Assembly: GCF_016900655.1 (NCBI RefSeq)
Contig: NZ_JACJKH010000007.1
Span: 1 to 64,000, forward strand
Direction of reading: 5' to 3'
DNA from: Drancourtella massiliensis
Lineage (GTDB): Bacteria; Bacillota; Clostridia; Lachnospirales; Lachnospiraceae
DNA length: 64,000 nt
Below the pieces are notes generated by a model. The model had not been told where the DNA came from, ran no database searches, and saw nothing but the letters and a program-made list of their open reading frames with translations. Positions 5,562-55,160 of this stretch are shown one piece after another. A program made the position numbers and the translations under genes. Position 1 is the first letter of the stretch; every line of letters starts with the position of its first letter.

Positions 5562-5564
5562 CAT

Positions 5565-6191: not shown

Positions 6192-6202
6192 GAATCCTCC
6201 TT

Positions 6203-6619: not shown

Positions 6620-6707
6620 TTCCATCACCTTTCAATTAGCAAACTAACTCTCGCACAAAAATCTTAGTTCTTAACAGACACTATTCTTTACTCTGTATCA
6701 CCTATAT

Positions 6708-7448: not shown

Positions 7449-7485
7449 GTTGTTCTCCTTTTTCTCTTTTACTCCAATGCTCCAT

Positions 7486-8526: not shown

Positions 8527-8547
8527 TCCTTTTTCCTCCGTCCGGAA

Positions 8548-10590: not shown

Positions 10591-10620
10591 GTTTCCTACC
10601 TCATTTTCTAATTTCAGTCT

Positions 10621-11562: not shown

Positions 11563-11668
11563 TCAAGCCACCTCTTGTATTATATGTATCTTATTATTAT
11601 ACCCTATTTTCTTTCTCTTTCCAAGAAAAAAGGCCGAAACTTCCGGTCCTTTGCAGAATAACAAGAAA

Positions 11669-11707
11669 GACACGGAAGTTTGCAGCTGTTCTCAAAGCTT
11701 CCGTGTC
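11669..11707 (-). terminator. Intrinsic terminator after the first Fe-alcohol dehydrogenase gene
   Basis: GACACGGAAG (11669-11678) and CTTCCGTGTC (11698-11707) form a perfect 10-bp stem. On the minus strand TTTCTTG follows the stem. Confidence 0.65.
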
Positions 11708-11736
11708 TCCTTTTACATCTCATTCTGTTTTTCCTG

Positions 11737-12900: not shown

Positions 12901-12925
12901 CTCGTTTCCTCCTGTTTTCCGCGCA

Positions 12926-12976
12926 GAAGATAAAATGGGACCGCAGATTCATATCTACAGCCCCATTGCTATCTTC
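12926..12976. repeat. Long imperfect hairpin between nfnB and the alcohol dehydrogenase gene
   Basis: GAAGATA (12926-12932) pairs with TATCTTC (12970-12976), and inner segments around ATGGG/CCCAT also pair. No clear T-run follows on the minus strand, so it may reduce readthrough or protect the upstream mRNA rather than stop transcription fully. Confidence 0.4.
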
Positions 12977-12997
12977 GCTTCTCTATTTCTGTCGGTT

Positions 12998-14383: not shown

Positions 14384-14384
14384 T

Positions 14385-15275
14385 TTAATTGTCACCTCCA
14401 CAATTTCCACATCCGCCGTGATGTGTATTGCCTTCCTGCAGTCTCAGCATTGCTCTTCCTTCTTCTGTTCTGTACATCTGCTGTCTCTTCATCGCTTCGT
14501 CAAAGTCTACAAGATGACCATCAAATTCCGGACCGTCTACGCATGCGAACTTCACTTCGTCGCCTACGTGCAGACGGCATGCACCGCACATTCCGGTACC
14601 GTCAACCATGATCGGGTTCATGCTGACGATCGTCGGAATTCCCAGATCCTTTGTCATGAGGCATGTGAATTTCATCATGATCATCGGTCCGATTGCAACA
14701 CAGACATCATAATGCTTTCCTTCCTCTTTTACAAGCTTCTCCACCATGGAAGTAACCATGCCGGCATGTCCGTAGCTTCCATCGTCTGTGCAGACATAAA
14801 CGTTACCTGCTACTGCCTTCATCTCTTCTTCCATGATTACAAGATCTTTTGTCTTTGCACCGATGATGACATCTGCATCAACGCCGTGCTCATGCAGCCA
14901 TTTTACCTGCGGGTATACAGGCGCAGTTCCAAGACCGCCTGCCACGAACAGGATTTTTTTATTCTTTAATGTTTCCGGATCTTCGGAAATGAACTCGGAC
15001 GGACGTCCAAGCGGTCCTGTGAAATCACGGAAATATTCTCCTTCTTTATACTCTGCCATTTTCTTAGTGGATGCTCCAACCACCTGTACTACAATTGTGA
15101 TCGTTCCCTTTTCTCTATCGTAGTCACAAATTGTAAGCGGGATTCTCTCACCTTTTTCATCCATTTTTACAATGACAAACTGCCCCGGCTCGCAATGGCG
15201 CGCAACACGAGGAGCTTCCACATCCATGAGAAAAATATTTTCTGCAAGGTCTTTTGCTTTTAAAATTTTGTACAT
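14385..15275 (-). CDS. nfnA: NfnA/SudB-like FAD and [2Fe-2S] subunit
   Basis: A 296-residue ferredoxin-NADP reductase-like protein related to PyrK. A flavin-binding barrel (residues 1-95, with RIPLTICDYD), a nucleotide-binding domain (FVAGGLGTAP at 110-119) and a C-terminal [2Fe-2S] segment are present. The cluster cysteines are C230, C233 and C245; the fourth ligand position upstream is Asp225 rather than Cys, which fits the Asp-ligated cluster known for Nfn (inference). It is the first gene of the two-gene operon and has a consensus-like promoter upstream. The C-terminal tail is Gly/Cys-rich. Confidence 0.85.
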   Translation of the reverse strand: MYKILKAKDLAENIFLMDVEAPRVARHCEPGQFVIVKMDEKGERIPLTICDYDREKGTITIVVQVVGASTKKMAEYKEGEYFRDFTGPLGRPSEFISEDPETLKNKKILFVAGGLGTAPVYPQVKWLHEHGVDADVIIGAKTKDLVIMEEEMKAVAGNVYVCTDDGSYGHAGMVTSMVEKLVKEEGKHYDVCVAIGPMIMMKFTCLMTKDLGIPTIVSMNPIMVDGTGMCGACRLHVGDEVKFACVDGPEFDGHLVDFDEAMKRQQMYRTEEGRAMLRLQEGNTHHGGCGNCGGDN

Positions 15276-15307
15276 CTCCCATGCCTCCTAATTGTTATAC
15301 TTTAATT

Positions 15308-15336
15308 ATCATAAGATATTGTTCATAAAATATCAA
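15308..15336 (-). promoter_or_regulatory. Promoter of the nfnAB operon
   Basis: On the minus strand TTGATA (15331-15336) is followed after 17 bases by TATGAT (15308-15313). It lies 33 bases upstream of the nfnA start. Confidence 0.55.
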
Positions 15337-15397
15337 GTAAATTCTTACAGGGAAACTGTTTTTTTCGATAAGGAATTCACAATTTCGCCAAAAGGAA

Positions 15398-15423
15398 ACC
15401 GCCGCTTCCGAAAAAGCGGCGGT
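15398..15423 (-). terminator. Intrinsic terminator after the second Fe-alcohol dehydrogenase gene
   Basis: ACCGCCGCTT (15398-15407) and AAGCGGCGGT (15414-15423) form a perfect GC-rich 10-bp stem with a 6-base loop. On the minus strand TTTCCTTTT follows. Confidence 0.75.
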
Positions 15424-15433
15424 CATACGGTAT

Positions 15434-16615
15434 TTAGAAGTCTACCTCTGTTCCGTAATATGTACATGTGAGAAGTTTTTCCATCTCTGCAGGTGTGATG
15501 CTTCTCGGGTTGGATCCTGTACATGCATCGCCGACTGCAAGTTCTGCGATACTGGAAAGTTTTTCTTTAAATTCTTCTTCGTTGATTCCGAATTCTTTTA
15601 ATGTTTTCGGGATTCCGAGTTCTACATTGAATGCATCAATCTTTGCAACGAGGCTGTTGATTAATGCTTTTTCAGATGTTCCCGGAAGTCCCATCCTGCG
15701 TGCGATCTCTGCGTAACGTTTTGCTGCTACAGGATCTTTTGCATTGTATTTGATAACATATGGAAGATAAATTGCATTCGCGCATCCGTGCGGAATATGT
15801 CCTGTGGAGAATGCAGCTCCTGTCTTATGAGCCATAGAGTGTACAATACCAAGCAGTGCATTGGAGAATGCCATTCCGGCCAGGCACTGTGCGTAGTGCA
15901 TCTGCTCTCTTGCGTCCATATCACAATGGTAGGATGCCGGCAGATAATCCAGTACCATCTCGATTGCCTGCAGTGCAAGCGGATCTGTAAATGGTCCATT
16001 CAGTGTGGAAACATAAGCCTCAATCGCATGAGTAAGAGCGTCCATTCCTGTGTAGGCAACCTGTTTTACCGGAAGTCCTGCAACAAGATCCGGGTCTACA
16101 ATGGCGATATCCGGTGTGATGTTGAAGTCAGCAAGCGGATATTTTACTCCTGTCTGATAGTTTGTGATAACGGAGAATGCAGTCACCTCTGTAGCTGTAC
16201 CGGATGTAGACGGAATTGCTGCAAATTTCGCTTTCTGTCTTAATTCCGGGAAGTTAAACGGTGTGCACAGATCTTCGAATGTTGTATCCGGATATTCATA
16301 GAATGCCCACATTGCTTTTGCAGCATCGATCGGTGATCCGCCGCCCATAGCAACGATCCAGTCAGGCTCGAATGCTCTCATGGCTTCTGCACCTTTCATA
16401 ACTGTTTCAACAGACGGGTCCGGCTCAACTCCTTCAAAGAGCTGTACTTCCATGCCTGCCTCTTTCAGATAATTCACTGCTCTGTCGAGGAATCCCTGGC
16501 GTTTCATGGAGCCTCCTCCGACTACCAGAATGGCTTTCTTTCCTTTCAGGTTTTTCAGCTCTTCTAAACAGCCCTTACCATGGTAAATATCTCTTGGTAA
16601 ACAAAATCTGCTCAT
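15434..16615 (-). CDS. Iron-containing alcohol dehydrogenase
   Basis: A 393-residue Fe-dependent alcohol dehydrogenase, distinct in sequence from the one at 11737. It carries GGGSPIDAAKA for nucleotide binding and the metal-binding segments DALTHAIEAY and HSMAHKTGAAF...PHG. The ATG at 16615 has an AAGGAG site; the longer frame from 16690 has none. A strong terminator follows directly. Together with the other dehydrogenase and NfnAB it marks a region for reducing-power balance. Substrate unknown. Confidence 0.85.
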   Translation of the reverse strand: MSRFCLPRDIYHGKGCLEELKNLKGKKAILVVGGGSMKRQGFLDRAVNYLKEAGMEVQLFEGVEPDPSVETVMKGAEAMRAFEPDWIVAMGGGSPIDAAKAMWAFYEYPDTTFEDLCTPFNFPELRQKAKFAAIPSTSGTATEVTAFSVITNYQTGVKYPLADFNITPDIAIVDPDLVAGLPVKQVAYTGMDALTHAIEAYVSTLNGPFTDPLALQAIEMVLDYLPASYHCDMDAREQMHYAQCLAGMAFSNALLGIVHSMAHKTGAAFSTGHIPHGCANAIYLPYVIKYNAKDPVAAKRYAEIARRMGLPGTSEKALINSLVAKIDAFNVELGIPKTLKEFGINEEEFKEKLSSIAELAVGDACTGSNPRSITPAEMEKLLTCTYYGTEVDF

Positions 16616-16796
16616 TGCTTGTCTCTCCTTTTCTTCCATTGATAATTTTTTAACTATCGTTAGTATACTCCTACTTTTAAAATTTTTCAAGTTCTTTCAC
16701 TTGTTTTTAACAATTTTTATGTCCGGATTTTTAATTGATTGAATATTTCTCTGATTTGGAACAATTATCTTATCCAAGGAGTACCCTGAAAAAAGA

Positions 16797-16833
16797 AAAG
16801 AGAGGAAGAACCCTCTGAATTCTTCCTCTCTTT
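16797..16833 (-). terminator. Intrinsic terminator after the TPR-protein gene
   Basis: AAAGAGAGGAAGAA (16797-16810) and TTCTTCCTCTCTTT (16820-16833) are perfect 14-bp arms. On the minus strand the stem is followed by TCTTTTTTC. It ends the long folD-TPR transcript. Confidence 0.75.
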
Positions 16834-16894
16834 CTCCTGTTTTCCCGGCAGATCATTTTCTGTTTTCAGGTCATATTCATAAAATCTACGGCCA

Positions 16895-17896
16895 TCAGGA
16901 ACTGAATCTGTATTTTCTCGTTGTAACTTCACTTTTCTTTCCGTTTCCATCAATCAGTACAACATTCAGTTCCGTATCTTCGTAAACCGCGAATGCGCCG
17001 GTATACTGAATAGACTGATCCGACGGTTCGGTTCCGTCCAGTGTATAGTATGCAGTGTAACCGTCCGGCACCTGTATTTCAACGCTGACCGCCTCGGAAT
17101 ACTGTCCCGTTGTCGGTGATACTGCAGGCGCGTCCGCTACCGGAAACTGGATCGTATATGTTTTTTGTACCTCAACACTTGCAATTCCTTTTTTATTGAC
17201 AAAAATGGCCCGGACTGTCGTCTCTCCTTCCTGATTCAGCTGGATCGGTTCTTTGTATTCTGTACTGTCTGTTGTCGCCTCGCTGCCGTCAAGAGTATAA
17301 TAGATAGTCCCTTCATCTTCACTGCTCAGTGTCAACTCCTGCACATTATCGTAGACCTTGTCGTCGTCCAGACTGAATTCCGGAATTTTGGCCACATAAT
17401 CCTTGAGTTCTGTGAGTATCTGCTCATTGGTACAGGTGCTCATGATATAGGCGATTTTTTCCGTCTGCTCTGTGTCTTCATAAAACTCTACCGCAGCGCG
17501 GTATACGCCTGTGCTGTCCGGATAGGTATTCACCGCTTCCTGCAGAAGAGTATCTGCCTTATCATCCTGATCCCGGCCGTGATAAAGCTTTGCAAGACTC
17601 ACGTAGGCATCCTCTTTTTCGCCGTTTTTTTCAATTGCCCTCAGATAGAGGTCTTCCGCTTTTGTAGTATTGCCGTCTGCTTCGGCTCTTTTCCCCTGAT
17701 TTACCACACCGGTATATGTATTCCGATAGATCAAAACTCCGATTCCGATGATCGCTGCAAGAAACAGGATCATTCCCAGAATCAGAATCCGTCTCAGCCT
17801 TCTCTTGCGGCGCATCCGCTCCGCTTTTGCTCTTCTCCTCCGCCTTCTGATCTCTTCCTCTGACAGTCTGTCTCCTGGATTTGTCATTCTTTGCAT
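16895..17896 (-). CDS. Membrane-anchored TPR protein with two chitobiase-C-terminal-like repeats
   Basis: A 333-residue protein with a very basic N-terminus, one membrane helix (about residues 36-57) and an extracellular part. The first outer part contains tetratricopeptide-like helices (GNTTKAEDLYLRAIEKN and following). Two beta-rich repeats each contain YYTLDG followed by an acidic loop, the hallmark of the CHB_HEX_C_1 domain. The start at 17896 is the first ATG with a nearby purine-rich site, 7 bases after folD ends. It probably acts at the cell surface, perhaps in envelope assembly; the function is not known. Confidence 0.65.
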   Translation of the reverse strand: MQRMTNPGDRLSEEEIRRRRRRAKAERMRRKRRLRRILILGMILFLAAIIGIGVLIYRNTYTGVVNQGKRAEADGNTTKAEDLYLRAIEKNGEKEDAYVSLAKLYHGRDQDDKADTLLQEAVNTYPDSTGVYRAAVEFYEDTEQTEKIAYIMSTCTNEQILTELKDYVAKIPEFSLDDDKVYDNVQELTLSSEDEGTIYYTLDGSEATTDSTEYKEPIQLNQEGETTVRAIFVNKKGIASVEVQKTYTIQFPVADAPAVSPTTGQYSEAVSVEIQVPDGYTAYYTLDGTEPSDQSIQYTGAFAVYEDTELNVVLIDGNGKKSEVTTRKYRFSS

Positions 17897-17903
17897 GGTA
17901 CCC

Positions 17904-43996: not shown

Positions 43997-44015
43997 AAAA
44001 CCCCCAATTAGCACG

Positions 44016-44036
44016 AAAAAGCCCTGACGGGCTTTT
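44016..44036 (-). terminator. Attenuator-like hairpin between acpP and rnc
   Basis: AAAAGCCC (44017-44024) and GGGCTTTT (44029-44036) form an 8-bp stem with a TGAC loop. On the minus strand the T-rich 3' arm ends in TTTTTCG. It would stop part of the transcripts after acpP inside the essential operon. Confidence 0.6.
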
Positions 44037-44049
44037 CCGCATTTATGTT

Positions 44050-44283
44050 TTAATTATTTGTTGCCGTTCTGATCTGCTCTACTGCGTCTCCCACTGTCAC
44101 GATTTTTTCCGCATCATCATTATCAATCTCGATATCGAATTCTTCCTCGATTCCCATGATAATCTGGAAAATGTCCAAAGAATCTGCTCCCAAATCGTCT
44201 ACAAATGTAGTCTCCATTGTGATGTCTGAGGCATCCACATTTAATACATCTGCGATAATCCCCTGTAATTTTTCAAATTCCAT
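44050..44283 (-). CDS. acpP: Acyl carrier protein
   Basis: A 77-residue acidic four-helix protein. The phosphopantetheine attachment site is Ser35 in GADSLD. It carries growing acyl chains in fatty acid synthesis. It follows plsX by 23 bases. Confidence 0.97.
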
Positions 44284-44306
44284 AGTTACATTCCTTCCTT
44301 AAAAGT

Positions 44307-45320
44307 TTATTCTTTCTCTTTCTGAATGCATTCTCTGATTTTCTCATTAATCTTCTGCTCTTTGAAGGTCACGCACTGAATAATGGAGTTGCAGACCTCA
44401 CGTGCCTTTGAGTTGCCGTGTGTCTTTACAACCAGGCCATTGAGACCAAGCAGCGGTGCTCCGCCGTACTCGCTTGCGTCAAATCCCTTCATCGTCTCCT
44501 TCAGCGCCGGTTTTACAAGCAGTGCTCCGATTTTTGTCCTGAGGCTCTTCATCATGCCTTCCTTGATCTTATCAACCAGCACCCCTCCGACGCCCTCATA
44601 AAGTTTCAGGATAATATTGCCCGCGAAAGCCTCGCAGACAATGACATCCGCGTCACCATACGGAATATTGCGCGCCTCGATGCTCCCGGTAAAATTAATA
44701 TCCGGGCATGCCTTCAGCATCGGGAACGTCTCTTTCACAAGGGCGTTGCCCTTCTCCTCCTCAGCACCGATATTGACAATCGCCACTTTCGGATTCTTCA
44801 CGCCCATAACATGCTCCATATAGATCGAGCCCATTTTTGCAAACTGCACCAGATGGGACGGTCTGGCATCTACGTTTGCTCCGCAGTCGATCAAAAGCGA
44901 AAATCCCTTTTTGGTCGGTAAAAGCGGTGCAAGGGGCGGCCTCTCCACTCCTTTGATTCTCCCTACAATGACCTGTCCTCCAACGAGAATGGCTCCGGAG
45001 CTTCCTGCCGATACAAACGCGTCGGCCTCTCCTTTTTTAACCATATTCATCGCTACGACAATCGAAGAATCCTTTTTTCTGCGGATTGCCATTACCGGCG
45101 GCTCCGCGGTCTCAATCACTTCACTGGCGCCCTTGATCTCAATCTGCTCTTTGTCGTAAGTATATTTGGCAAGCTCTTCTTTTATGATGTCTTCTTTCCC
45201 GACAATCAATACCTGAATATCCCTGCGCTTATTTACTGCGTCAACAGCGCCTTTAATGATTTCCACCGGGGCATTATCCCCTCCCATGGCGTCGAGCGCC
45301 ACTTTCGTGTATTCTGCCAT
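44307..45320 (-). CDS. plsX: Phosphate acyltransferase PlsX
   Basis: A 337-residue enzyme that makes acyl phosphate from acyl-ACP, the first step of phospholipid synthesis in Firmicutes. The start KVALDAMGGDNAP and the segment SSGAILVGGQVIVGRIKG are characteristic. It starts the plsX-acpP-rnc-smc-ftsY series here. In many relatives rpmF lies directly upstream, but here 6.8 kb of other genes come between. Confidence 0.96.
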   Translation of the reverse strand: MAEYTKVALDAMGGDNAPVEIIKGAVDAVNKRRDIQVLIVGKEDIIKEELAKYTYDKEQIEIKGASEVIETAEPPVMAIRRKKDSSIVVAMNMVKKGEADAFVSAGSSGAILVGGQVIVGRIKGVERPPLAPLLPTKKGFSLLIDCGANVDARPSHLVQFAKMGSIYMEHVMGVKNPKVAIVNIGAEEEKGNALVKETFPMLKACPDINFTGSIEARNIPYGDADVIVCEAFAGNIILKLYEGVGGVLVDKIKEGMMKSLRTKIGALLVKPALKETMKGFDASEYGGAPLLGLNGLVVKTHGNSKAREVCNSIIQCVTFKEQKINEKIRECIQKEKE

Positions 45321-45347
45321 GCTTCTACCTCCTGCATTCTATCAGTA

Positions 45348-45376
45348 ATTCTACTAGACATTGTTATAAAAATCAA
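45348..45376 (-). promoter_or_regulatory. Probable plsX operon promoter
   Basis: On the minus strand TTGATT (45371-45376) is followed after 17 bases by TAGAAT (45348-45353), with AGGAGG just before the plsX start. A separate promoter would be expected if rpmF no longer precedes plsX. Confidence 0.5.
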
Positions 45377-45391
45377 TGCTTTTCTATCTTT

Positions 45392-46627
45392 TTAAGAACT
45401 CTTGCCAACGCGGTATTCCCGTTTCAGCGCACTCATAATGACTCTGGATGCTACATCCACGATATTGAATCCAAAGGCAATCGCAAGACATGTGGTGGCT
45501 AGAAGGATTCCTTCACTGGAAATGAGCGCGGAATCATTGCTTACAAAACCGTACATCATATAGTACAGATTTGGTCCCGGAATCAAAGGAAATACAGATG
45601 CTGTCAGGAAAATCGTCGATGGTGCCTTATTGACTCTGGACATGATAAATGCATAAAATCCGACAAATACCGCTGCAATCAATGTAGCAAGAAAGTTGCT
45701 CGGTTCAATGGCAAATACGAGAGCATAAATTCCCCATGTAATAAACGCACCAACTCCCGAGTAGAATACCTGACGTCCCCGGACTTTAAACCATATGGCA
45801 AAACCGATACAGGCAATCGTACAGGAAACAAGCTGCATCGGAACACTTGGTGTCAGCATAAATCCTTCCATGGATCTTGCATGAAAGACCATCATGGCAA
45901 GCGCGATCCCAAGAGCAATTCCTGTTGCCCCGAGAATGGAATTTAAAATATTAATGGACCCGGATATAAAGTCCCGCTGCAGTAACTCGCGGAATCCATT
46001 GGTCGTACCAAGTCCACTGATCAGCAGCATGACAATCCCGATCATGATTCTGTCGGGATGTGTTCCGATTCCATTTCTGGTCGCCAGGATAATAATGATC
46101 TCAGATAAAAAGGCAAGGATCAGATTATAAATCATCAGATTTCCTTCCCTTGTGCTCAGCCATTTTCCAACAAATACAATCATCAGTGAAACAACCACAG
46201 CAACAATCGCATCCATAAATCCGCACCCGAAGAATACGGCAAATCCGGCACCTCCCATGACTCCCGCCACATACCGGAGAATTTCCGGCTGTTCCGGCCG
46301 GTTCATCACTTCCTCAAACTTGATCTTCAGCTGATCCGCATCCGGCTTATGGGCACAGACATATCTGGAAAGATTGTTCAGATAGTCCAGCCGGTCAAAA
46401 TCATTCTCCGATGTCTCGATATGCCTTACCTGAGTGATAAACTCTCCTTCCGGCGTCTTCGCTGTCACCTGAATGTTGCTTGGAATAACAAATACATCAT
46501 ATCTGACAAATCCATAACTTTTCAGCATTCTGTAAAGGGCATCCTCCAACCGGAAATTTTCCGCTCCGCTTTTCAGCATCTCTTCTCCGATATCCAGGAT
46601 GCCTTCAATAATTCTGTTGTAGTCCAT
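45392..46627 (-). CDS. Threonine/serine exporter family protein (fused ThrE)
   Basis: A 411-residue membrane protein. It has a soluble N-terminal ThrE domain (about 1-120), five membrane helices (about 120-260) and a second set of about five helices (about 275-400) matching ThrE_2. Corynebacterium ThrE has the same fused plan and exports threonine and serine. In many Firmicutes the halves are split. It is encoded downstream of the YkvI-type transporter after a terminator. Substrate is inferred from the family only. Confidence 0.8.
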   Translation of the reverse strand: MDYNRIIEGILDIGEEMLKSGAENFRLEDALYRMLKSYGFVRYDVFVIPSNIQVTAKTPEGEFITQVRHIETSENDFDRLDYLNNLSRYVCAHKPDADQLKIKFEEVMNRPEQPEILRYVAGVMGGAGFAVFFGCGFMDAIVAVVVSLMIVFVGKWLSTREGNLMIYNLILAFLSEIIIILATRNGIGTHPDRIMIGIVMLLISGLGTTNGFRELLQRDFISGSINILNSILGATGIALGIALAMMVFHARSMEGFMLTPSVPMQLVSCTIACIGFAIWFKVRGRQVFYSGVGAFITWGIYALVFAIEPSNFLATLIAAVFVGFYAFIMSRVNKAPSTIFLTASVFPLIPGPNLYYMMYGFVSNDSALISSEGILLATTCLAIAFGFNIVDVASRVIMSALKREYRVGKSS

Positions 46628-46776
46628 CCTTCTACCTCACTCCACTTTCTTTTTTCTTTCTTAAGCACTTTCCTATTCTAGCAAATAATAATCGATTTTT
46701 CATCCCTTTTCTAAAAGAATTCCTCTTCTTTTACAAATTTCTTACAATTGTGGTTGAGCCTGCCCGCACTCCACAC

Positions 46777-46809
46777 AAAAAACAGCAACCGTTTCGATTG
46801 CTGTTTTTT
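46777..46809. terminator. Bidirectional terminator after the YkvI-type gene
   Basis: AAAAAACAGCAA (46777-46788) and TTGCTGTTTTTT (46798-46809) are perfect 12-bp arms. On the minus strand it stops transcription after the transporter gene. Confidence 0.8.
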
Positions 46810-46834
46810 ACAGACAGATATTTTCTGCAAATAG

Positions 46835-47980
46835 CTATGCTTTTTTCCTTTTAGCAAGGAAATCTGTAATATTTTTCTTAATCATAAACAGAATTAACAC
46901 TGCTCCGACATAACCATTCAGAACATAAATAACATTAACGAGTGTTCTGAATGGAAGGAACAGCCCGACGATCAGCCCTACAACCGCAAGAACAACTGTC
47001 AAAATTTTAAAACGGGAAGTTCCTTCTTTTGCGAAACGGGATGCCGGATTATAGAGCAGCGGAACAGCTGTCGTATAAATACCTGCAAATACAACAATTG
47101 CAAAAATAGCAGAAAACGGTTTCCAGATCTTCATGGCAAGAATCAGGTTCGGAATATCTGCATTCCATACATAAGCGCTTCCGTCCTCAAGCGGAGTATT
47201 GATATTGGCAATCTGGCCGAAAGAGATCAAAGCAATTGCAACACACACAGCAACCGTGCCACCTACGATACCATAGTTAAGATCTTTTTTCTTGTTCTTG
47301 GATCCCAGCGCTGCCGTAAAACTTGCAAACCACAGAAGAACAAATCCTGCATAGGAAGCTGCTGAAATAAACCAGTTCGCACCTGCATTTTTGATCGTTT
47401 CTCCCTCTGCTGCTCCTGCATAGGCACCTGTCCGGATAACTTCCAGTCCTGCCGGAATATTGCCTGCATCCTGAATCACCGTAACAAGACCGATAAAAAT
47501 ACAAAGTACAACGATAATCGGCCCTACGACACCAATGGCATCAACGAGAGAATTCAGTCCGCCGACTACTGTAATTGTCGTAAGGATTGTAAGGATGACT
47601 GCACCTGCCCAGTTCGGAAGTCCGTACTCCTGATTCAATGTAGATGCCGCACCGCCGATCATAACCCAAAATGACATATAGCAGAAAATCGTAGAATAAT
47701 AGTCACAAAATGTTCCTACATATTTTCCGCAAAAATATTTGTAAACATCATTTCCGTGTTCAAACTTCTGTTCAGCGCCTGCTTTCGCAAAGTTAAAATT
47801 GTAATACAGAAACATGACCGCAAAGCCAAGAATAACCAGAATTGACTGCCAGCCATATGCTGTATAGTATTGAATGATCTCCTGGCCTGTCGCAAATCCG
47901 GATCCGATGGTAAACGCGATTACCGCTCCTGCCAGAATCAGAACTCTCTTCCAGTTCACTGCGCCGTTCTCTTTGCCCAT
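46835..47980 (-). CDS. YkvI-family membrane transporter
   Basis: A 381-residue integral membrane protein with about ten hydrophobic segments. The start VLILAGAVIAFTIGSGFATGQEIIQYY resembles the substrate-binding first helix of LeuT/APC-fold carriers and the YkvI family, whose substrates are unknown. AGGAGGGG precedes the ATG. It lies 94 bases after grdB on the same strand, but a strong terminator sits between them. As membrane proteins of this family stand beside a GrdE/GrdB pair here, it may import the amine substrate of the reductase (inference). Confidence 0.75.
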   Translation of the reverse strand: MGKENGAVNWKRVLILAGAVIAFTIGSGFATGQEIIQYYTAYGWQSILVILGFAVMFLYYNFNFAKAGAEQKFEHGNDVYKYFCGKYVGTFCDYYSTIFCYMSFWVMIGGAASTLNQEYGLPNWAGAVILTILTTITVVGGLNSLVDAIGVVGPIIVVLCIFIGLVTVIQDAGNIPAGLEVIRTGAYAGAAEGETIKNAGANWFISAASYAGFVLLWFASFTAALGSKNKKKDLNYGIVGGTVAVCVAIALISFGQIANINTPLEDGSAYVWNADIPNLILAMKIWKPFSAIFAIVVFAGIYTTAVPLLYNPASRFAKEGTSRFKILTVVLAVVGLIVGLFLPFRTLVNVIYVLNGYVGAVLILFMIKKNITDFLAKRKKA

Positions 47981-48007
47981 AGAGTCCCCTCCTATCCATC
48001 AAAAATT

Positions 48008-48042
48008 AAAAAACGGGTACAGTACAGATCTGTACTGTACCC
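48008..48042 (-). terminator. Perfect 28-bp palindromic terminator after grdB
   Basis: GGGTACAGTACAGA (48015-48028) is followed by its exact complement (48029-48042), so the stem has no obvious unpaired loop. On the minus strand GTTTTTTAATTTTT follows. It separates grdB from the transporter gene. Confidence 0.85.
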
Positions 48043-48074
48043 GGATTCTGTTATTATTTTTTAGTTATCTTTCT

Positions 48075-49397
48075 TTAGAAATTGTCTTTTTCAAATACGG
48101 TCTGCTCGGTTACTTCAGTTTGAAGTGCTTTGAGCGCCCGGCGTACCATTCTCTTACGGATCTTCTTGGAATCCACTTCGCCCTGGGTTGGATCACCAAG
48201 CGGATACGGAATACCAACACCTGGGATAATTCTGTTGGCGCCGATTGTAAGGGAAATCGGAACTACCGTTGCCATATGTACTACCGGAACCCCATATTTT
48301 TCGATTCCTTTAACCATCGTTGCACCGCAACGAGTACAGGTACCTCATGTGCTGACGAGGATAACCCCGTCAACATGCTCCTGTTCTGTGAGGATCTTAC
48401 CGATCTCATCACCAAATTTTGCTGCAGATCCTGTCGCAGTTCCTGTACCTGTTGTTGTACAGAAGAAGTTTACGAGTTCACCGAACTCTCCGTCTCTTTC
48501 CATTTCACGAAGTACATCAAGCGGAACTACCAGGTTCGGATTTGCCATAACGAACTGACGGTCATATCCACCATGGATTGTTGTAAACTCTTCCGGGCTC
48601 ATAGAATCTTTTCCTTCGATGGAGTAGATTCCGAACTTCGTTGCATTGGAAGATTCGATATGATCCGGGTTTCCAACCGGAACAACACCACCGGAAGTAA
48701 CAACCGCGATCTTCGCATGTTTGATATCCTTGATTGCCGGTGCAGGCGGTACCCTGTCAAATTTCGGCATCGGAAGGTCTGTCTCAAACGGCTCGCCTTT
48801 CATCTTCTTTACAAGCATCTTGATGGCACGTTCGGATCCTCTTTCTTCCGCGAAGTAGTTGACACGGATTCCTCTTTCGTGATAATTTTCTTCATTCGGT
48901 CCAAGAATCTCTTCGCCTGTTGCCATCTTCTTGATCAGATTTACGATGGACGGAAGTACTTTTCTCATTGTAGCTGCGGAGTTTCCTGTCTTTACTGTGA
49001 TCACGTCCTTGCGGAACATATCAACACCAGGGTTCTCCTCATAGGCTGCTGTCAGCACCGGAATACCGAGTCTTTCTTCCACTGCTTTACAGATCGTTCC
49101 ACATGCAACGCCGTAACGTCCTGCGTTGAATGCCGGTCCTGCAAAGAAGACGTCCGGTTCATATTTCTTTACCATGTCGATAATCGTATCGGTTGCTTCA
49201 TCCAGATTTTCTCCGAAATAGTTGTCACCGCAGATTACTGTAGCTACGATTTCATAATCTTCACCAAGAGCCTGTGCAAGAGCTGCTCCTGGTCCAAGAG
49301 CCTCTTCTCTTACTTCCGGTTTGTAATCTGCCTTTTCCTCACCGCCGATACCGGCAAAGAACTGGTTAATATAATGAACAATTTTATATTTTGCCAT
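48075..49397 (-). CDS. grdB: GrdB-like selenoprotein B (glycine/sarcosine/betaine reductase family), Sec at residue 351
   Basis: A 440-residue protein read through an in-frame UGA at 48345-48347. Before the UGA the chain ends DGVILVST and after it continues GTCTRCGATMVKGIEKYG and GVPYPLG, the exact surroundings of selenocysteine in GrdB, giving a U-x-x-C redox motif. GrdB is the substrate-specific catalytic subunit that cleaves the C-N bond of an amine, with GrdE holding the substrate by a pyruvoyl group and selenoprotein A taking the product. The ATG at 49397 has GGAGG. It follows grdE by 21 bases. Substrate unknown; plain stop-codon loss of function is unlikely because the downstream part is conserved. 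Confidence 0.9.
48317..48333 (-). promoter_or_regulatory. SECIS-like hairpin for UGA decoding
   Basis: In the mRNA, 11 bases after the UGA, TCGTTGC and GCAACGA form a perfect 7-bp stem with a GGU loop. Bacterial SECIS elements lie just downstream of the UGA and show a short stem with conserved G and U in the apical loop, where SelB binds. Position and loop fit well. Confidence 0.7.
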
Positions 49398-49418
49398 TTT
49401 GGATCCTCCTTCCAAATC

Positions 49419-50705
49419 TTAATATCCCCTTGCTGCAAGGTGGTTAAAGCCGTTTGCGATCGTAGATGCAATGATGATCTGAAGCTCTGCCTCAAAGGAA
49501 CCGTCTTCATTGACACATCCTGCCCATCCGCCGATCTGGCTTTCGATGTAATCCATAGTACCGATCACTTTGTCCATAGCCGGGAACTGTAATGTCGCAT
49601 TTCCCTGTCCACAGGAGGAAAGTGCATCCGCCTCATCGCATGTATCTGCCAGAGACTGGGATTTTCCGTCTTTTCCCGGGAATTCGTCTGTGATCAGAAC
49701 TACTTTCACGCCTTTGCGTTCTACTTTACGGCAGTTCATCATCAGGTCGGTATCCGGATTTCCGTATCCTTCCTCTGTGATCAGTACGCCATCAAGTCCC
49801 ATCCATTCTGCCAATTTTGCAACCATGTCAGAATGTCTCTCTTTATCAGCAAGGAATACGTTTTCATTCGTAAGGATGACACCCATAAAGTTGATGTCTT
49901 TTCCGTGATGCTTATAGCAGTCCTCGATAACCGGGTTGTGGAAGTGGTGATAGGTCGTAACCTTGTCACACGGAGCTACACAGTTTCCGGATACGATCGC
50001 GCCGTCCATGATTTCTGTCGGATACATGAATGTCGGTACGAACTGTTTTGCGTCAACTCCATAGTAATATGTATCGTGGAGGAGTCCCTGTGACTGAAGC
50101 ATGTGGATATATCCTACTTTCGGAAGATCAGGATACATTGCGGCCTGCTCAAAAATCGGCTTCGTCTCATATGTTTCCAGTGTATCCGGTTCAATGTTTC
50201 TTCCTGCTTCTCCAAGGTAAGCTGCAACTTTCAGTCCTGCCATTCTTCCCGCTTTTTCATATACGTGGGTCTCAAGCCCTTCCTGAGGTTCGATTACAAC
50301 ACAGAGATTTACAGTCTTGGAAAACGGACAGTAATCTGCTGCCGGTCCGCTCATGTCGATAACACCTTCCTGGAAACCAACAATCCGTCCAACGGTAACT
50401 ACGCAGCATCCGTCCAGCGCATGTGTTCTTCCTTCGCCTACTGTCGGTGTTACTTTCCCTACAACTCCAGGGAAAATCTCTCCGCCTGATACTTTTACTC
50501 TAGGTTCGATTACATCCTTCACCGGTGTAATACGTGTGCTGTCACCCGGACGGGCGATGTCAAGGCTGCAGCCGATCAATTTGTCATCTTCCAGAACAAG
50601 CGCTTCCACTTCTTCCTTATTGACATAGAGCACATGGTCTTTCACATATGTCTTTTCTGCAAATTGGATATCGTCGATCTTAATCTTCCCTAATTCCAAT
50701 TTCAT
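49419..50705 (-). CDS. grdE: GrdE-like pyruvoyl proprotein of the reductase component B
   Basis: A 428-residue protein of the GrdE family. The processing site SGN/CVAPCDK places Asn241-Cys242, the same position as the Cys242 cleavage site known for GrdE of glycine reductase; cleavage gives two subunits and a pyruvoyl group that binds the amine as a Schiff base. The conserved end SCGQGNATLQFPAMDKVIGTMDYIESQIGGWAG is present. AAGGAGGG lies 8 bases before the ATG. It is the first gene after a dedicated promoter and is coupled to grdB. The family includes glycine, sarcosine and betaine enzymes and others of unknown substrate. Confidence 0.9.
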   Translation of the reverse strand: MKLELGKIKIDDIQFAEKTYVKDHVLYVNKEEVEALVLEDDKLIGCSLDIARPGDSTRITPVKDVIEPRVKVSGGEIFPGVVGKVTPTVGEGRTHALDGCCVVTVGRIVGFQEGVIDMSGPAADYCPFSKTVNLCVVIEPQEGLETHVYEKAGRMAGLKVAAYLGEAGRNIEPDTLETYETKPIFEQAAMYPDLPKVGYIHMLQSQGLLHDTYYYGVDAKQFVPTFMYPTEIMDGAIVSGNCVAPCDKVTTYHHFHNPVIEDCYKHHGKDINFMGVILTNENVFLADKERHSDMVAKLAEWMGLDGVLITEEGYGNPDTDLMMNCRKVERKGVKVVLITDEFPGKDGKSQSLADTCDEADALSSCGQGNATLQFPAMDKVIGTMDYIESQIGGWAGCVNEDGSFEAELQIIIASTIANGFNHLAARGY

Positions 50706-50733
50706 AGGTAAATCCCTCCTTCTTTGTAATCGC

Positions 50734-50766
50734 GATAACTTTAAGTCAAAAAAAAACTTTGTTATC
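50734..50766. promoter_or_regulatory. Inverted repeat in the grdE leader
   Basis: GATAAC (50734-50739) and GTTATC (50761-50766), with inner AGT/ACT pairing, lie between the grdE promoter and its ribosome site. They may bind the neighbouring TetR protein or fold in the mRNA. Confidence 0.35.
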
Positions 50767-50788
50767 TTTTTTCTTGTTCTTTATCCCT

Positions 50789-50817
50789 ATTATATGATTT
50801 TGTCTTACAATTATCAA
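50789..50817 (-). promoter_or_regulatory. Promoter of grdE-grdB
   Basis: On the minus strand TTGATA (50812-50817), 17 bases, then TATAAT (50789-50794). The leader to the start codon is about 75 bases. Confidence 0.65.
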
Positions 50818-50880
50818 GTTTTTTATTCAATCTTTCTATACATTTTTTCGATAAGTTCTATAAGTTCAGCATTTCCACCA

Positions 50881-50921
50881 AAAAAAGACGCCTTCAGACA
50901 GTTTTCCCGTCTGAAGACGCC
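50881..50921 (-). terminator. Intrinsic terminator after the TetR gene
   Basis: On the minus strand GTCTTCAGAC and GTCTGAAGGC pair around GGGAAAACT, with further pairing below, and TTTTTT follows (50881-50886). It separates tetR from grdE. Confidence 0.75.
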
Positions 50922-50923
50922 CC

Positions 50924-51616
50924 TTATTGAATTTGATATTCCTTATATCCTTTCAAGTCTTTCGCAAACATTCGAACCAGCTTTTCAATATCACGAATAA
51001 AGAGTCTTACCCTTCCGTTTACATCCTTTTCCTCAATTCCATCGTCACAGACCGTCTTGAAATATCCTTTGAACAGAAGGCAGACCATCCGGTTCAACGA
51101 TACCGCATTATCGTATCCAATCGCATTGGAACGGATACACTTTCTGCACATTTCAAAATCACGCCCCATGAAGTCCCCTGTCTGAAGCATCTCGTGGAAG
51201 ACCCTGTTGGAGAGCATCAGGTTTTCCGGAAACATCTTATAATACTCTCTGATGGAAACACGCAGCTTGTTATTGTTATTTTCGAAAAAGAGAAGATTAT
51301 ATGCCTCAGGCTTCCGGAATGCCTCCATGGAATAGCAGTACCATACCCCAACATAGATATCCCACACATTTTTCCAGTGCTTCTCCGCCGCGTTCAGACG
51401 CTGGATATAATAGTTCAGCTCCCCAAGCTCTGCATAGTATAACAGTTCATCCCTGCTGTCAAAATAGCGGTACAGACTTGCCGTAGAACAGTCCATCTCC
51501 TTTGCAATCCGCCGGATCGTCACCGCGCCGATCCCCTCCTGATGAATAATCTCATTCGCTTTCGCAATATAATCCCGTCTTGTCAGTCCTTTAAAGTACT
51601 TTTCATTCCTCTTCAT
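50924..51616 (-). CDS. TetR/AcrR-family regulator next to grdE
   Basis: A 230-residue regulator with an N-terminal TetR helix-turn-helix (about residues 33-55, AVTIRRIAKEMDCSTASLYRYFDSRDELL) and a larger-than-usual C-terminal ligand domain with several Cys residues (MCRKC). It follows grdX by 12 bases and so is co-transcribed with it. It faces the grdE promoter region and is the natural candidate to sense the reductase substrate. The exact operator is not proven. Confidence 0.85.
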   Translation of the reverse strand: MKRNEKYFKGLTRRDYIAKANEIIHQEGIGAVTIRRIAKEMDCSTASLYRYFDSRDELLYYAELGELNYYIQRLNAAEKHWKNVWDIYVGVWYCYSMEAFRKPEAYNLLFFENNNNKLRVSIREYYKMFPENLMLSNRVFHEMLQTGDFMGRDFEMCRKCIRSNAIGYDNAVSLNRMVCLLFKGYFKTVCDDGIEEKDVNGRVRLFIRDIEKLVRMFAKDLKGYKEYQIQ

Positions 51617-51628
51617 ATACCAATTCCC

Positions 51629-52018
51629 TTACATCAGTCTCGGAACGATATTTTCAATTACCGAAAGGTCGATGGTCTTAAAGTCTTCTTCTACGTTTTT
51701 CTGATAGTGGTCCGGTGTCGGGGCAATTTCCTGCCACTGTTCGTATGTTTCAATGCATTTTTCAATCAGCATGATATCTTTCGTATTATCTTCCTCCCCT
51801 TTCGGGTATACCATAACCGAACGGAACGGCGTCTGGTTCGGCTTCAGGCTGGACGCCTGAGGGTGGGTCAGAAGGATATGCCGGTCATACACAAGGTCTC
51901 TTACCTTGATCAGTACGTCTCTGTAAGAGTCCAGAAGAATGACTTCCATGTCATCTTTATATTTTCGGTACACTCTATCGTTGTTTGTCACCAAAGTTAC
52001 TTTTTCCATATTCCACAT
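51629..52018 (-). CDS. grdX: GrdX-family protein
   Basis: A 129-residue soluble protein of the GrdX family, small proteins found in glycine/betaine reductase gene clusters with unknown function. The segment DVLIKVRDLVYDRHILLTHP followed by SSLKPNQTPFRSVMV is the family hallmark. The ATG at 52018 with GAGG 10 bases upstream is used; MEKV three codons later is an alternative. Its presence strengthens the call of the downstream genes as a reductase locus. Confidence 0.82.
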   Translation of the reverse strand: MWNMEKVTLVTNNDRVYRKYKDDMEVILLDSYRDVLIKVRDLVYDRHILLTHPQASSLKPNQTPFRSVMVYPKGEEDNTKDIMLIEKCIETYEQWQEIAPTPDHYQKNVEEDFKTIDLSVIENIVPRLM

Positions 52019-52098
52019 CGTATATCAGCCTCTTTTCCGGTTGGTTTCTTTTTATCTTAACATAGTTGCTCTTTTTTCACCATAAATTACGGCAAATT

Positions 52099-52117
52099 TG
52101 TGGTAATTATGTGGTAA
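52099..52117. promoter_or_regulatory. Tandem TGTGGTAA direct repeats upstream of grdX
   Basis: TGTGGTAA occurs at 52099-52106 and 52110-52117, 11 bases apart (one helical turn). The position upstream of grdX and tetR suits a regulator-binding site. No -35/-10 pair could be fixed with confidence nearby. Confidence 0.35.
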
Positions 52118-52126
52118 ACCGGCATG

Positions 52127-52156
52127 AAAAAAGGGATCTGCATATTTGCAAATCCC
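52127..52156 (-). terminator. Intrinsic terminator after rpmF
   Basis: On the minus strand GGGATTTGC and GCAGATCCC pair (one mismatch) and TTTTTT follows (52127-52132). It ends the yceD-rpmF transcript before the grd block. Confidence 0.75.
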
Positions 52157-52174
52157 CGTTTTTCGGTATTTCCA

Positions 52175-52357
52175 TTAGTCTTCTACGGAAATGATTTCTT
52201 TCTTGTTATAGCTTCCGCAAGCTTTGCAAACTCTGTGAGGCATCATAAGTGCGCCGCATTTGCTGCATTTTACAAGATTCGGAGCGCTCATTTTCCAGTT
52301 TGCTCTTCTCTTGTCGCGTCTTGCTTTAGAAGTTTTATTCTTTGGACAAATTGACAT
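52175..52357 (-). CDS. rpmF: 50S ribosomal protein L32
   Basis: A 60-residue ribosomal protein starting MSICPKNKTSKARRDKRRA. Four cysteines in two CxxC pairs (CSKC, CKAC) form a zinc ribbon. It follows yceD by 3 bases. Confidence 0.98.
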   Translation of the reverse strand: MSICPKNKTSKARRDKRRANWKMSAPNLVKCSKCGALMMPHRVCKACGSYNKKEIISVED

Positions 52358-52360
52358 CGG

Positions 52361-52879
52361 TTACACCTCCTTAAAATTCTTAAACAGATCGCGGATAACT
52401 GACATTCTTGGATCAAGACCCGGATCTTCACAATCGCAGGTACCCTCGTTTAGGTTCTGACCACATACACTGCAAAGTCCTTTGCAGTCTTCCCTGCACA
52501 GGGTTTTTGTCGGCCATCCTATCAAAATCTCATAATAGAGTAATTTGTCGACGTCAAGATGATATCCGTCAATATAATCTGATTCTTCGTCTGTCTCTGC
52601 AGTCTCTCCACCGACAACGGCATGTCTCTCAAAAGAAATCTCCATCGGAACTTTCACCGGACTGAGACAACGGTCGCACGGAATCACTGCAGTCAGACTG
52701 CAGGAACCGGAGACAGAAATCTCTTTTCCTTTTACATGCTCAATATGAATCTGCACGCTGCTCTTCTCCACAAGAGGGAAAGGACCGCCTGGCAGTTTCA
52801 TCGCCTCCATCTCAAGCGGAAGGACGGCATCAATCGGTTTGTGCTGTTCGGACAGTACATCGGATAGGTTTAACAGCAT
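52361..52879 (-). CDS. yceD: YceD/DUF177 protein (23S rRNA accumulation)
   Basis: A 172-residue protein of the DUF177 family, which lies before rpmF in most bacteria and is thought to help 23S rRNA stability. It has CDRC in the middle and a cysteine-rich tail (CREDCKGLCSVCGQN and CDC) that may bind zinc. The ATG at 52879 is preferred because AGGAG is then 8 bases away. A consensus promoter lies 29 bases upstream. Confidence 0.9.
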   Translation of the reverse strand: MLLNLSDVLSEQHKPIDAVLPLEMEAMKLPGGPFPLVEKSSVQIHIEHVKGKEISVSGSCSLTAVIPCDRCLSPVKVPMEISFERHAVVGGETAETDEESDYIDGYHLDVDKLLYYEILIGWPTKTLCREDCKGLCSVCGQNLNEGTCDCEDPGLDPRMSVIRDLFKNFKEV

Positions 52880-52907
52880 ATTCATTGCTCCTATTCATAC
52901 CTTGACT

Positions 52908-52935
52908 ATTATATCATGTCATTTCATTTTGTCAA
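52908..52935 (-). promoter_or_regulatory. Strong promoter of yceD-rpmF
   Basis: On the minus strand TTGACA (52930-52935), 16 bases, then TATAAT (52908-52913): both hexamers match the sigma-A consensus exactly. It lies just after the ackA stop codon. Confidence 0.8.
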
Positions 52936-52959
52936 CAGTTTTTTTACTGTCTGAGGAGA

Positions 52960-54147
52960 TTAAACCAGTGCTTTTGTCTCACGTGCAATCGCAAGCTCTT
53001 CGTTTGTCGGGATGACATATACTTTGACTTTGGAGTCTTCCGTAGAAATCTCGGATGCCACTCCGCGCGCCTGAGCGTTCTTTTCTTTATCAATCTTCAC
53101 ACCAAGGTATCCAAGGTATTCACAGATTTCTTCTCTCATCTGAGTATCGTTTTCGCCTACACCTGCAGTAAATGTGATTGCATCTACACCGTTCATTGCA
53201 GCTGTGTAGGAACCGATATATTTTGCCACACGGTATCTGTAAGCGTCAAGTGCCATGATCGCACGTTCATTTCCTTCGTCTGCTGCTGCTCTTACATCAC
53301 GGAAATCGGAAGATACACCGCTCATTCCGAGAACACCGGATTTCTTGTTCAGGATGTTGAGCATTTCGTTGATATCGATATTCTCATGGTTGCAGATAAA
53401 CTGCAGGACAGCCGGATCAAGGTCACCGCTTCTTGTTCCCATGATCAGTCCTTCAAGGGGTGTCAGACCCATACTTGTATCAACGCATTTTCCGCCGATG
53501 GAAGCTGAGATGCTGGCTCCGTTTCCAAGGTGGCATACGATTACTTTTGCATCGTCTTTTCCGAGGCATTTCAGTGTCTCGCCGGATACGAACATATGGC
53601 TTGTACCATGGAAACCGTATCTTCTGATGCTGTATTTCTCATAATATTCATATGGAATTGCGTACATTGCCGCTTTTTCCGGGATCTTCATACCGAAAGC
53701 GGTATCGAATACTGCAACGTTCGGTTTGCCCGGCATTGCTGCTTCACATGCTTCGATTCCGATCAGGTTTGCCGGATTGTGGAGCGGTCCAAGGTCAAAG
53801 CAGTCACGGATAACTTTCTTAACATCATCGTTGATCAAAGTTGCGTCGCTGTAGATCGTTCCGGCATGCAGTACGCGGTGTCCGATTGCTGTGATATCAT
53901 CTGTGCTTTCGATAACACCGTGTTCTTTGTCCATCAGAGCGTCCAGCACAAGCTGTACAGCCACTTTGTGGTCTTCCATCGGAGTCTCTACACTGTAGTT
54001 TTCTTTTCCTGTCGGTTTGTGTGTCAGTTTGGATCCGTCGATCCCGATTCTCTCGCAAAGTCCTTTTGCAAGAACACTCTCATTTTCCATATCGATGAGC
54101 TGGTATTTTAATGAAGAGCTTCCGCAGTTAATAACTAAAATTTTCAT
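52960..54147 (-). CDS. ackA: Acetate kinase
   Basis: A 395-residue enzyme of the ASKHA fold that makes ATP and acetate from acetyl phosphate. The start [16 protein letters not shown], the catalytic segment FDTAFG and the RYGFHGTSH motif are intact. The ATG at 54147 has AAAGGAAG and lies 17 bases after pta. Acetyl phosphate from pta, or from a glycine-reductase-type system, would be its substrate. Confidence 0.97.
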
Positions 54148-54164
54148 TTTTCTTTTCTTCCTTT

Positions 54165-55160
54165 CTATTTTGACTGGCACTGCACTGCTGTAATTGCAAC
54201 AACACCTTCGATATCTTTGGCGCTGCATCCTCTGGAAAGGTCATTTACAGGAGCCGCGATTCCCTGAGTCATTGGTCCGTATGCTTCTGCCTTTGCCAGT
54301 CTCTGCACTAACTTATAACCGATATTTCCTGCATCCAGGTCAGGGAAGATCAGGACATTTGCCTTTCCTGCAACCGGGCTGTCCGGAGCTTTTGAAGCTC
54401 CTACGGAAGGAACGATCGCCGCGTCTAACTGAAGTTCTCCATCCAGCATCAGATCCGGAGCCTGTTCTTTCGCGATCTTAACCGCCTCTACTACTTTTGT
54501 GACATCATCATGCTTTGCACTTCCCTTTGAGGAATGAGAAAGCATTGCCACTCTCGGCTCTGCTCCTACAAGCTGTTTGAAGCTCTCTGCGGAGGAAATT
54601 GCGATTGCTGCAAGCTCTTCCGGTGTCGGATTCTGATTCAGACCGCAGTCACCGAATACAAATGTTCCGTTTTCTCCCATATCACAGTCCGGTACTACCA
54701 TGATAAAGAATGCGGATACAAGCTTTGTTCCAGGTTTCGTCTTGAGAATCTGCAGACACGGACGAAGTGTGTCAGCTGTAGAATGGCATGCTCCGGAAAC
54801 CATTCCGTCTGCGTCGCCCATCTTTACCATCATTACTCCGTAATATGGATAGTTGGTCAGAAGAAGCTCTCTTGCCTGTTCCTCAGTCATACCTTTTTTC
54901 TGTCTTAATTCCACCAGCTTTGCAATATAGCTCTCTGTCTTTTCACTCTTTGCCGGATCTACAATCTGTGCACCGCTGATATCGAAGCTTCCCTTATTCT
55001 TCGCGATTTCTTCTTCACTTCCGATCAGAACCAGTCTGGCTGTCCCCTCTTTTAAAATTGCCTCGGCAGCCTCATAGGTCCGGGCATCTTCTGTCTCCGG
55101 AAGTACAATTGTCTTGAGATCTGCTTTGGCCTTTGCCTTGATTTCATCAATAAATCCCAT
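54165..55160 (-). CDS. pta: Phosphate acetyltransferase
   Basis: A 331-residue enzyme, the short single-domain form usual in Firmicutes, that turns acetyl-CoA into acetyl phosphate. The PTA_PTB segments [17 protein letters not shown] and [18 protein letters not shown] are present. It is the first gene of the pta-ackA operon. Confidence 0.96.

Follow-up and report, generated by a model that had tools for sequence, protein, structure and literature searches.

A reductase component whose genes stand apart from those for the rest of the enzyme raises the question of what it reduces and with which partners. We encountered this arrangement at positions 45392-52018 of a 64,000-nucleotide stretch of Drancourtella massiliensis DNA (contig NZ_JACJKH010000007.1; the whole stretch is called the window below), part of the 3.27 Mb assembly of 163 contigs (G000) that was the genome searched. 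Six genes lie there in a row, all on the minus strand: grdX, tetR, grdG, grdF, a gene for a YkvI-like membrane protein and a thrE-type gene. An earlier note on this DNA, made from the letters alone, had described this row, and we found it at the positions given, with the families assigned by profile models. The note took the module for a component B acting on an amine not yet assigned. Our comparisons lead us, with high confidence, to a different reading: the module would encode the component B of a sarcosine reductase (GrdG/GrdF) with dedicated uptake and control genes, and would take its core from a glycine reductase operon on another contig, C110 (contigs are labeled C, loci L, and genomes G).

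Both subunits exceeded the cut-offs of the NCBI sarcosine models. The alpha subunit, encoded by grdG (49419-50705, minus strand), scored 882.1 bits on the GrdG model NF040793 (cut-off 780), and the beta subunit, a selenoprotein of 440 amino acids encoded by grdF (48075-49397, minus strand), scored 822.7 bits on the GrdF model NF040794 (cut-off 800); in Pfam, they match the GrdE-type family PF09338 (662 bits, cut-off 22.2) and the GrdB-type family PF07355 (551.3 bits, cut-off 22), respectively. All six other GrdF-clade proteins used as controls passed the GrdF model (858.1, 854.0, 812.8, 852.8, 826.6, and 835.6 bits). It was failed by both glycine-type GrdB proteins, that of A. noterae (704.7 bits) and the genome's own on C110 (720.1 bits, slightly more than its 715.1 bits on the glycine model), and by three of three betaine GrdH proteins (547.9, 568.4, and 582.1 bits). 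The genome's own glycine GrdE likewise failed the GrdG model (632.2 bits). The window GrdF scored higher on the sarcosine than on the glycine model (822.7 vs. 616.1 bits) and stayed below the cut-off of the betaine GrdH model (572.3 bits, cut-off 775), as the window GrdG did on the fluoroacetate FarE model (177.5 bits, cut-off 675). The SGNCxxxC processing cysteines, the meaning of which for the pyruvoyl proprotein is treated in PMC10838667, are present in GrdG (SGNCVAPC in the window) and GrdE and, in a motif alignment, absent from three of three betaine-type GrdI proteins. A PDB sequence search with the GrdF protein at E values up to 1 returned no match.

In a maximum-likelihood tree of 59 GrdB-type rows, the window protein falls in a 29-row clade with both GrdF proteins of Peptoclostridium (Eubacterium) acidaminophilum (support 99/99, with a bootstrap that had not fully settled). 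A quick-search tree of concatenated GrdG and GrdF gave the same placement with an approximate likelihood-ratio test (aLRT) support of 99; it has 57 rows, L033 and the very long branch L093 having been removed from this tree only. In both trees, the window GrdF lies outside the glycine clade. The loci gathered included none from C. litorale, T. creatinophila, FS41, or Sporomusa. PMC4056300 describes P. acidaminophilum as using sarcosine and as carrying two sarcosine reductase clusters. GrdG and GrdF of the window are 72.8% and 65.5% identical to its proteins and 57.2% and 60.5% identical to the genome's own glycine GrdE and GrdB on C110. Scores and trees are not independent of each other, since the P. 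acidaminophilum sequences in the trees may also have gone into the sarcosine models.

Gene context in relatives also speaks for sarcosine. Directly upstream of grdG-grdF in L083 (genome G085) lie two genes. One encodes an isochorismatase-family protein with N-carbamoylsarcosine amidohydrolase (1nba, E 1.9e-57) as its top hit in the PDB, the other a dihydropyrimidinase-type hydantoinase (523.9 bits, cut-off 393.25). These neighbors would yield sarcosine by the N-methylhydantoin route, which has been published (PMC4417704 and PMC5364220). In L079 (G191), a single run at 3373-17901 reads trxB-trxA-grdA-grdC-grdD-grdX-tetR-grdG-grdF-ykvI-like-grdI-grdH-BCCT, with the component B genes for sarcosine and betaine beside one core. 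The scores of both subunits, the trees, and these neighbor genes rule out an unassigned amine, as the earlier note had it, as the leading explanation. Elsewhere, grdG-grdF stand without a tetR or ykvI-like gene: in L022 (701-9335), they lie behind an MttB-family methyltransferase (PF06253), a BCCT carrier, and a Hydantoinase_A/MutL-type protein, and in L025 (5312-9335), only a shorter MttB-like open reading frame accompanies them. Betaine or dimethylglycine demethylation may feed sarcosine reductase at these two loci.

Several observations pull in the other direction. The margin of the window GrdF over the sarcosine cut-off is small (22.7 bits), and the protein also passes the glycine GrdB cut-off (616.1 vs. 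602.2 bits), although this score does not discriminate, because both P. acidaminophilum GrdF proteins pass it as well (695.9 and 667.4 bits). Approximately unbiased (AU) tests did not reject a tree in which the P. acidaminophilum pair is taken out and the other GrdF proteins of this clade are united with the glycine clade (p = 0.273, and 0.12 for the concatenation). For the earlier note, a place inside the sarcosine clade would have spoken against its proposal; the maximum-likelihood trees give that place, and the AU tests leave this one alternative. Moreover, the amidase homologue of L083 is absent at E 1e-20 from nine of the ten genomes with a GrdF-type protein, this genome included, and no creatinase was seen beside the creatininase-family gene on C79. 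That gene (L137:8965-9783) was not used as evidence; its neighbor we take to be a gene for a RibU-like membrane protein, a similar pair occurs in G117 (L138), and an M24-like protein further on is presumably an aminopeptidase.

The alternative that survives best, though we consider it unlikely, is a component B that resembles GrdF in sequence but has a different amine as its substrate, such as N,N-dimethylglycine, N-ethylglycine, or an unassigned N-substituted glycine. Sequence does not prove specificity, the two P. acidaminophilum GrdF proteins share 64-66% identity with the window GrdF, and the AU tests are indecisive; the methyltransferase and BCCT carrier ahead of the L022 genes also make methylated glycines conceivable. 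Against this stand the sarcosine cut-offs exceeded by both subunits and the amidase and hydantoinase of L083, and, by reasoning from PMC10838667, SGNCxxxC speaks for a Schiff-base-forming amine over a quaternary one. A second glycine reductase component B, an isoenzyme for another condition, is less probable again: the genome already holds a glycine core operon and the window GrdF passes the glycine cut-off, but so do the P. acidaminophilum proteins, and the higher sarcosine score, a GrdG far above a cut-off that the genome's own GrdE fails, the trees, and the module's own regulator and carrier all oppose it. Sarcosine is very probably the substrate.

The beta subunit of this sarcosine-type component B contains the in-frame UGA that the earlier note had seen. 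The TGA lies at 48345-48347 (minus strand) in the context STUGTCTRC, a bacterial selenocysteine insertion sequence (SECIS) follows directly 3' of it (48307-48344, minus strand; RF01990, 64.6 bits, gathering score 38), and the protein continues through the TGA into a conserved C terminus. One in-frame stop occurs in the aligned stretch of all 59 distinct GrdB-type proteins gathered, and in 58, it immediately precedes GTCTRC, a motif that had no match in the divergent L093. In the mechanism that we propose, sarcosine would enter, probably via the YkvI-like carrier, and cleavage of the GrdG proprotein would create a pyruvoyl group that, with the selenocysteine of GrdF, would activate sarcosine as in glycine reductase. 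The carboxymethyl group would pass to the selenocysteine of GrdA, GrdC and GrdD would release acetyl phosphate with methylamine also formed, and acetate kinase would convert the acetyl phosphate to ATP. The reduction chemistry itself is established for glycine and sarcosine reductase.

No grdA, grdC, grdD, or thioredoxin gene was seen among the open reading frames of the module, in line with the earlier note, and the only GrdA match in the whole genome is on C110. The order on that contig is grdX-grdE-grdB-trxB-trxA-grdA-grdC-grdD, followed by a thrE-type gene. GrdA (276.3 bits, cut-off 130), GrdC (809.7 bits, cut-off 450), and GrdD (570.7 bits, cut-off 350) pass their NCBIfam models, as does GrdX, and the thioredoxin and the pyridine-nucleotide disulphide reductase were assigned by Pfam. 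Contig C142 carries PrdA (997.4 bits, cut-off 700) and other proline reductase-type matches and also SelA, SelB, SelD (340.8 bits, cut-off 125), and a tRNA-Sec (68.8 bits, gathering score 47); in the tRNA-Sec family search, all 14 control genomes gave matches at E 0.001 as well, five of them above the cut-off, and here, one of 13 matches was above it. With grdA, grdC, grdD, selA, selB, selC, and selD all present, the idea of a substrate-specific component B that relies on GrdA, GrdC, and GrdD from elsewhere gains support, the core lying in a single operon. The module is orphaned in a local sense only, because the shared parts are encoded in the same genome, and the C110 glycine reductase operon would supply GrdA, GrdC, GrdD, and the thioredoxin pair.

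Of 299 genomes surveyed in the family, 31 gave a match at E 1e-60, 10 of them a GrdF-type one (67-100% identity to the window). In nine of these 10, a further match at 56-60% identity falls in the range of known glycine enzymes, with the model test made on this genome's copy alone. Within this genus, the full module was seen in G000 and G032 and part of it in L029. That the module could be what is left of a once complete reductase operon, decayed or no longer active, as the absence of core genes from the cluster might suggest, is scarcely credible in view of its open frames, the UGA and its SECIS, the shared core and selenocysteine genes in the genome, the same module in other genera, and the identity to G032 (74-96% across the module) and to the parts in L029 (89-99%: 99% over the last quarter of grdF, 89% for the ykvI-like gene, and 94% for thrE, with 97% for plsX). 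A same-clade sarcosine module with a GrdF 81% identical was also found in a Leptotrichiaceae metagenome-assembled genome (L026, a Fusobacteriota bin), by horizontal transfer or mis-binning.

We compared the module with known systems. In Clostridium sp. FS41 (DSM 6877), a degrader of N-methylhydantoin, the sarcosine-specific B genes and a hypothetical gene form one cluster and the shared A/C genes another, the same split as here, in an account without a TetR protein, operator, or carrier (PMC4417704). The split arrangement was thus already in print, and the statement of the earlier note that such genes normally lie in one cluster was too strong for sarcosine reductase. GrdG and GrdF of P. acidaminophilum likewise form a two-subunit component B with the UGA in the beta subunit, a GrdX-family gene lies beside one of the two copies (L094), and no grdC or grdD is found in the stretches shown. 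Their neighbors include a sigma-54 regulator, with a BCCT carrier, an M24 peptidase, and grdA added at one copy, whereas the window module has the TetR gene, the YkvI-like carrier, and ThrE as neighbors and no grdA. Tissierella creatinophila, a creatinine fermenter with sarcosine reductase, has an N-carbamoylsarcosine amidase gene clustered with a D-hydantoinase-like gene (PMC5364220), much as in L083, but no such feeder genes lie beside the window module. The genome's own glycine reductase operon shares a homologous component B and grdX, but its proteins fail the sarcosine cut-offs. The fluoroacetate reductase genes farACEB of Cloacibacillus porcorum form a small operon that pairs component B genes with a carrier of their own, and FarE is given there as lacking the two processing cysteines that the window GrdG has (PMC10838667). 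A literature search, with subscription journals mostly outside its scope, yielded no description of a TetR operator and a dedicated carrier at a sarcosine module. What looks new is the control and uptake (the TetR protein, its DNA switch, and a probable carrier), the enzyme and its split from the core being known.

The TetR-family regulator is encoded at 50924-51616 (minus strand; 230 amino acids; PF00440, 42.7 bits, cut-off 24), and a 14-bp candidate operator, the near-palindrome GTTATCGCGATTAC, lies at 50726-50739 (minus strand), 20 bases before the grdG start codon. Across the 27 GrdF loci that hold grdG (the window included; L029, which has no grdG, was left out), a TetR homologue stands beside grdG in 17, and GTTATCGCGATTAC or a near form was detected upstream of grdG. 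Within 400 bases ahead of grdG, an operator-like site with no more than two mismatches occurs in 15 of the 17 loci with tetR vs. 0 of the 10 without (Fisher p = 8e-6, not corrected for relatedness, several loci being near-duplicates), a count that is no independent test because the motif was derived from the very loci counted. Controlling for relatedness weakens the association: six independent pairs in the tree differ in TetR, and typically, five agree and none oppose (sign test, median p = 0.0625). Of the two exceptions, L078 has three-mismatch sites that retain a ATCGCGAT or ATCACGAT core, and in L081, a one-mismatch copy precedes the gene for its NSS carrier and a two-mismatch copy precedes grdX. 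With up to one mismatch, GTTATCGCGATWAC occurs at one place only in the 3.27 Mb genome, and the backwards control occurs nowhere; G117 has no match at this threshold, fitting its three-mismatch sites. No operator with up to two mismatches was found in 19.9 kb around the C110 glycine operon. A two-mismatch form at 47910-47923, inside the start of the ykvI-like gene, may be chance.

In 10 of the 17 loci, a site with three mismatches or fewer coincides at least in part with a promoter-like match or with the bases immediately 3' of it. The window has a sigma-70-type promoter-like site before grdG (TTGATA-17-TATAAT, 50789-50817, minus strand; 11 of 12 consensus positions), a call by consensus match only, with 19 such sites in the region vs. 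14.6 in shuffles. The operator begins ∼50 bases past the -10 box, so that it may act as a road-block or a second promoter may exist. The natural reading is that the TetR protein is a repressor: it is predicted to bind GTTATCGCGATTAC-type operators before grdG and to hold back grdG-grdF and perhaps the ykvI-like gene until sarcosine or a related compound releases it. Riboswitch control was considered and rejected, since, in an Rfam search at E ≤5 over 44000-53000, the SECIS alone exceeded its gathering score; weak matches to SpF25 (28.5 bits vs. 48) and sR14 were disregarded.

The putative sarcosine importer is the YkvI-like membrane protein of 381 amino acids encoded at 46835-47980 (minus strand). 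The label YkvI-like follows the earlier note, no library model of that name having matched. At E 0.001, it has no Pfam match, and the NCBIfam agcS match is weak (E 4.8e-5, 22.4 bits, cut-off 272.65). Its predicted structure, of middling confidence (predicted local distance difference test 65, predicted template-modeling score 0.71), has a LeuT/APC-type fold. The 50 Foldseek matches shown are, we presume, LeuT-fold carriers, with AgcS at rank 3, and the VIA matches comprise metal, auxin, and amino-acid carriers, the top one a manganese carrier (Z 22.6, root-mean-square deviation 4.0 over 332 residues). Because the top VIA rows are Nramp-type metal carriers, the fold says nothing on the substrate. 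An amino-acid-like carrier is plausible, and sarcosine is our best guess. We know of no substrate assigned so far to the YkvI-type group.

A YkvI-like gene directly follows grdF in 12 of 28 loci (the window, L015, L017, L019, L020, L026-L029, L074, L078, and L079). Four of the 299 genomes hold close copies (at least 79% identity), five in all, of which four lie directly beside grdF; the fifth, a G032 paralogue (L075:7321-8460, contig C5; 80% identical), has neither a grd gene in view in the surrounding 16 kb nor an operator at up to two mismatches. Weighing against a carrier specific to this role, NSS-type carriers occupy the slot after grdF in five loci (L014, L018, L021, L024, and L076), and L015, L027, and L028 have an NSS-type carrier upstream in addition to the YkvI-like gene. 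In L080 and L081, the NSS-type carrier lies on the upstream side; these two and the five in the slot after grdF all match a model for sodium-dependent transporters or for SNF. Besides its YkvI-like gene, L026 carries one for an AgcS-type carrier. Strict mutual exclusion of YkvI-like and NSS-type carriers was considered and dropped, since L015, L027, and L028 hold both, and the pair test had too few cases. An SLC6-type symporter is already drawn beside grd genes in PMC10838667. In the window, a 13-bp hairpin with a T-run (48014-48043, minus strand) separates grdF from the ykvI-like gene, whose start codon follows 33 bases later; this leaves scant room for a promoter and suggests read-through, so that the gene probably depends on transcripts from grdG-grdF.

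The comparative data agree with the proposed roles of transporter and sensor. For the combined proposal, in which the YkvI-like protein would be a dedicated sarcosine importer, the TetR protein a sarcosine-responsive repressor acting on GTTATCGCGATTAC, and the whole a self-contained cassette that moves between anaerobic Firmicutes and uses the GrdA, GrdC, and GrdD of its host, we see about as much reason for belief as for doubt. It makes two predictions: an operator for a regulator without a known ligand and a substrate for an uncharacterized carrier. The module would link this genus and other Lachnospiraceae to sarcosine as electron acceptor and ATP source. Sarcosine is a breakdown product of creatine, creatinine, and betaine.

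The remaining genes frame the module. Farthest upstream is grdX (51629-52018, minus strand; 129 amino acids; GrdX family NF038093, 132.8 bits, cut-off 40). Beyond it, an acetate kinase gene (52960-54228) lies beside one for a phosphate acetyl/butyryl transferase (54165-55160). The earlier note had the kinase turn the reductase product into ATP; the gene is there, but its proximity is weak evidence, because it is a housekeeping neighbor. In a survey of 30 plsX loci (from 29 of 31 genomes with a match; short flanks, some loci ending at contig ends), 13 have rpmF ahead of plsX on the same strand and no more than ∼1.1 kb away, with DUF177 in 11 and ackA in 10, all without the module. Since this rpmF-DUF177-ackA neighborhood recurs in relatives that have no module, acetate kinase was set aside as functional evidence. 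In the other 17 plsX loci, rpmF was not seen in the short flanks, including the three of this genus, where thrE is the neighbor.

At the downstream end, the thrE-type gene (45392-46627, minus strand) encodes a threonine/serine exporter homologue (PF06738, 196.2 bits, cut-off 26.3; ThrE_2 PF12821, 100.5 bits, cut-off 27) that falls below the NCBIfam ThrE equivalog (100.2 bits vs. 550). In this genus, the module and thrE sit between rpmF and plsX, and thrE stands beside plsX in three of three members; for the remaining 27 plsX loci, no thrE came into view within the short flanks. The neighbor of grdX is ThrE in L012 and L013 as well, and a ThrE-type gene (L010:14999-15772) follows the genome's own glycine reductase operon, placing ThrE relatives near both grd modules. 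A link to sarcosine or amine traffic, as an accessory carrier, is possible but weak. The next gene after the module is plsX (44307-45320 in the window). PlsX and GrdD belong to the same Pfam family (PF02504), and the adjacency of plsX to the module is probably coincidence.

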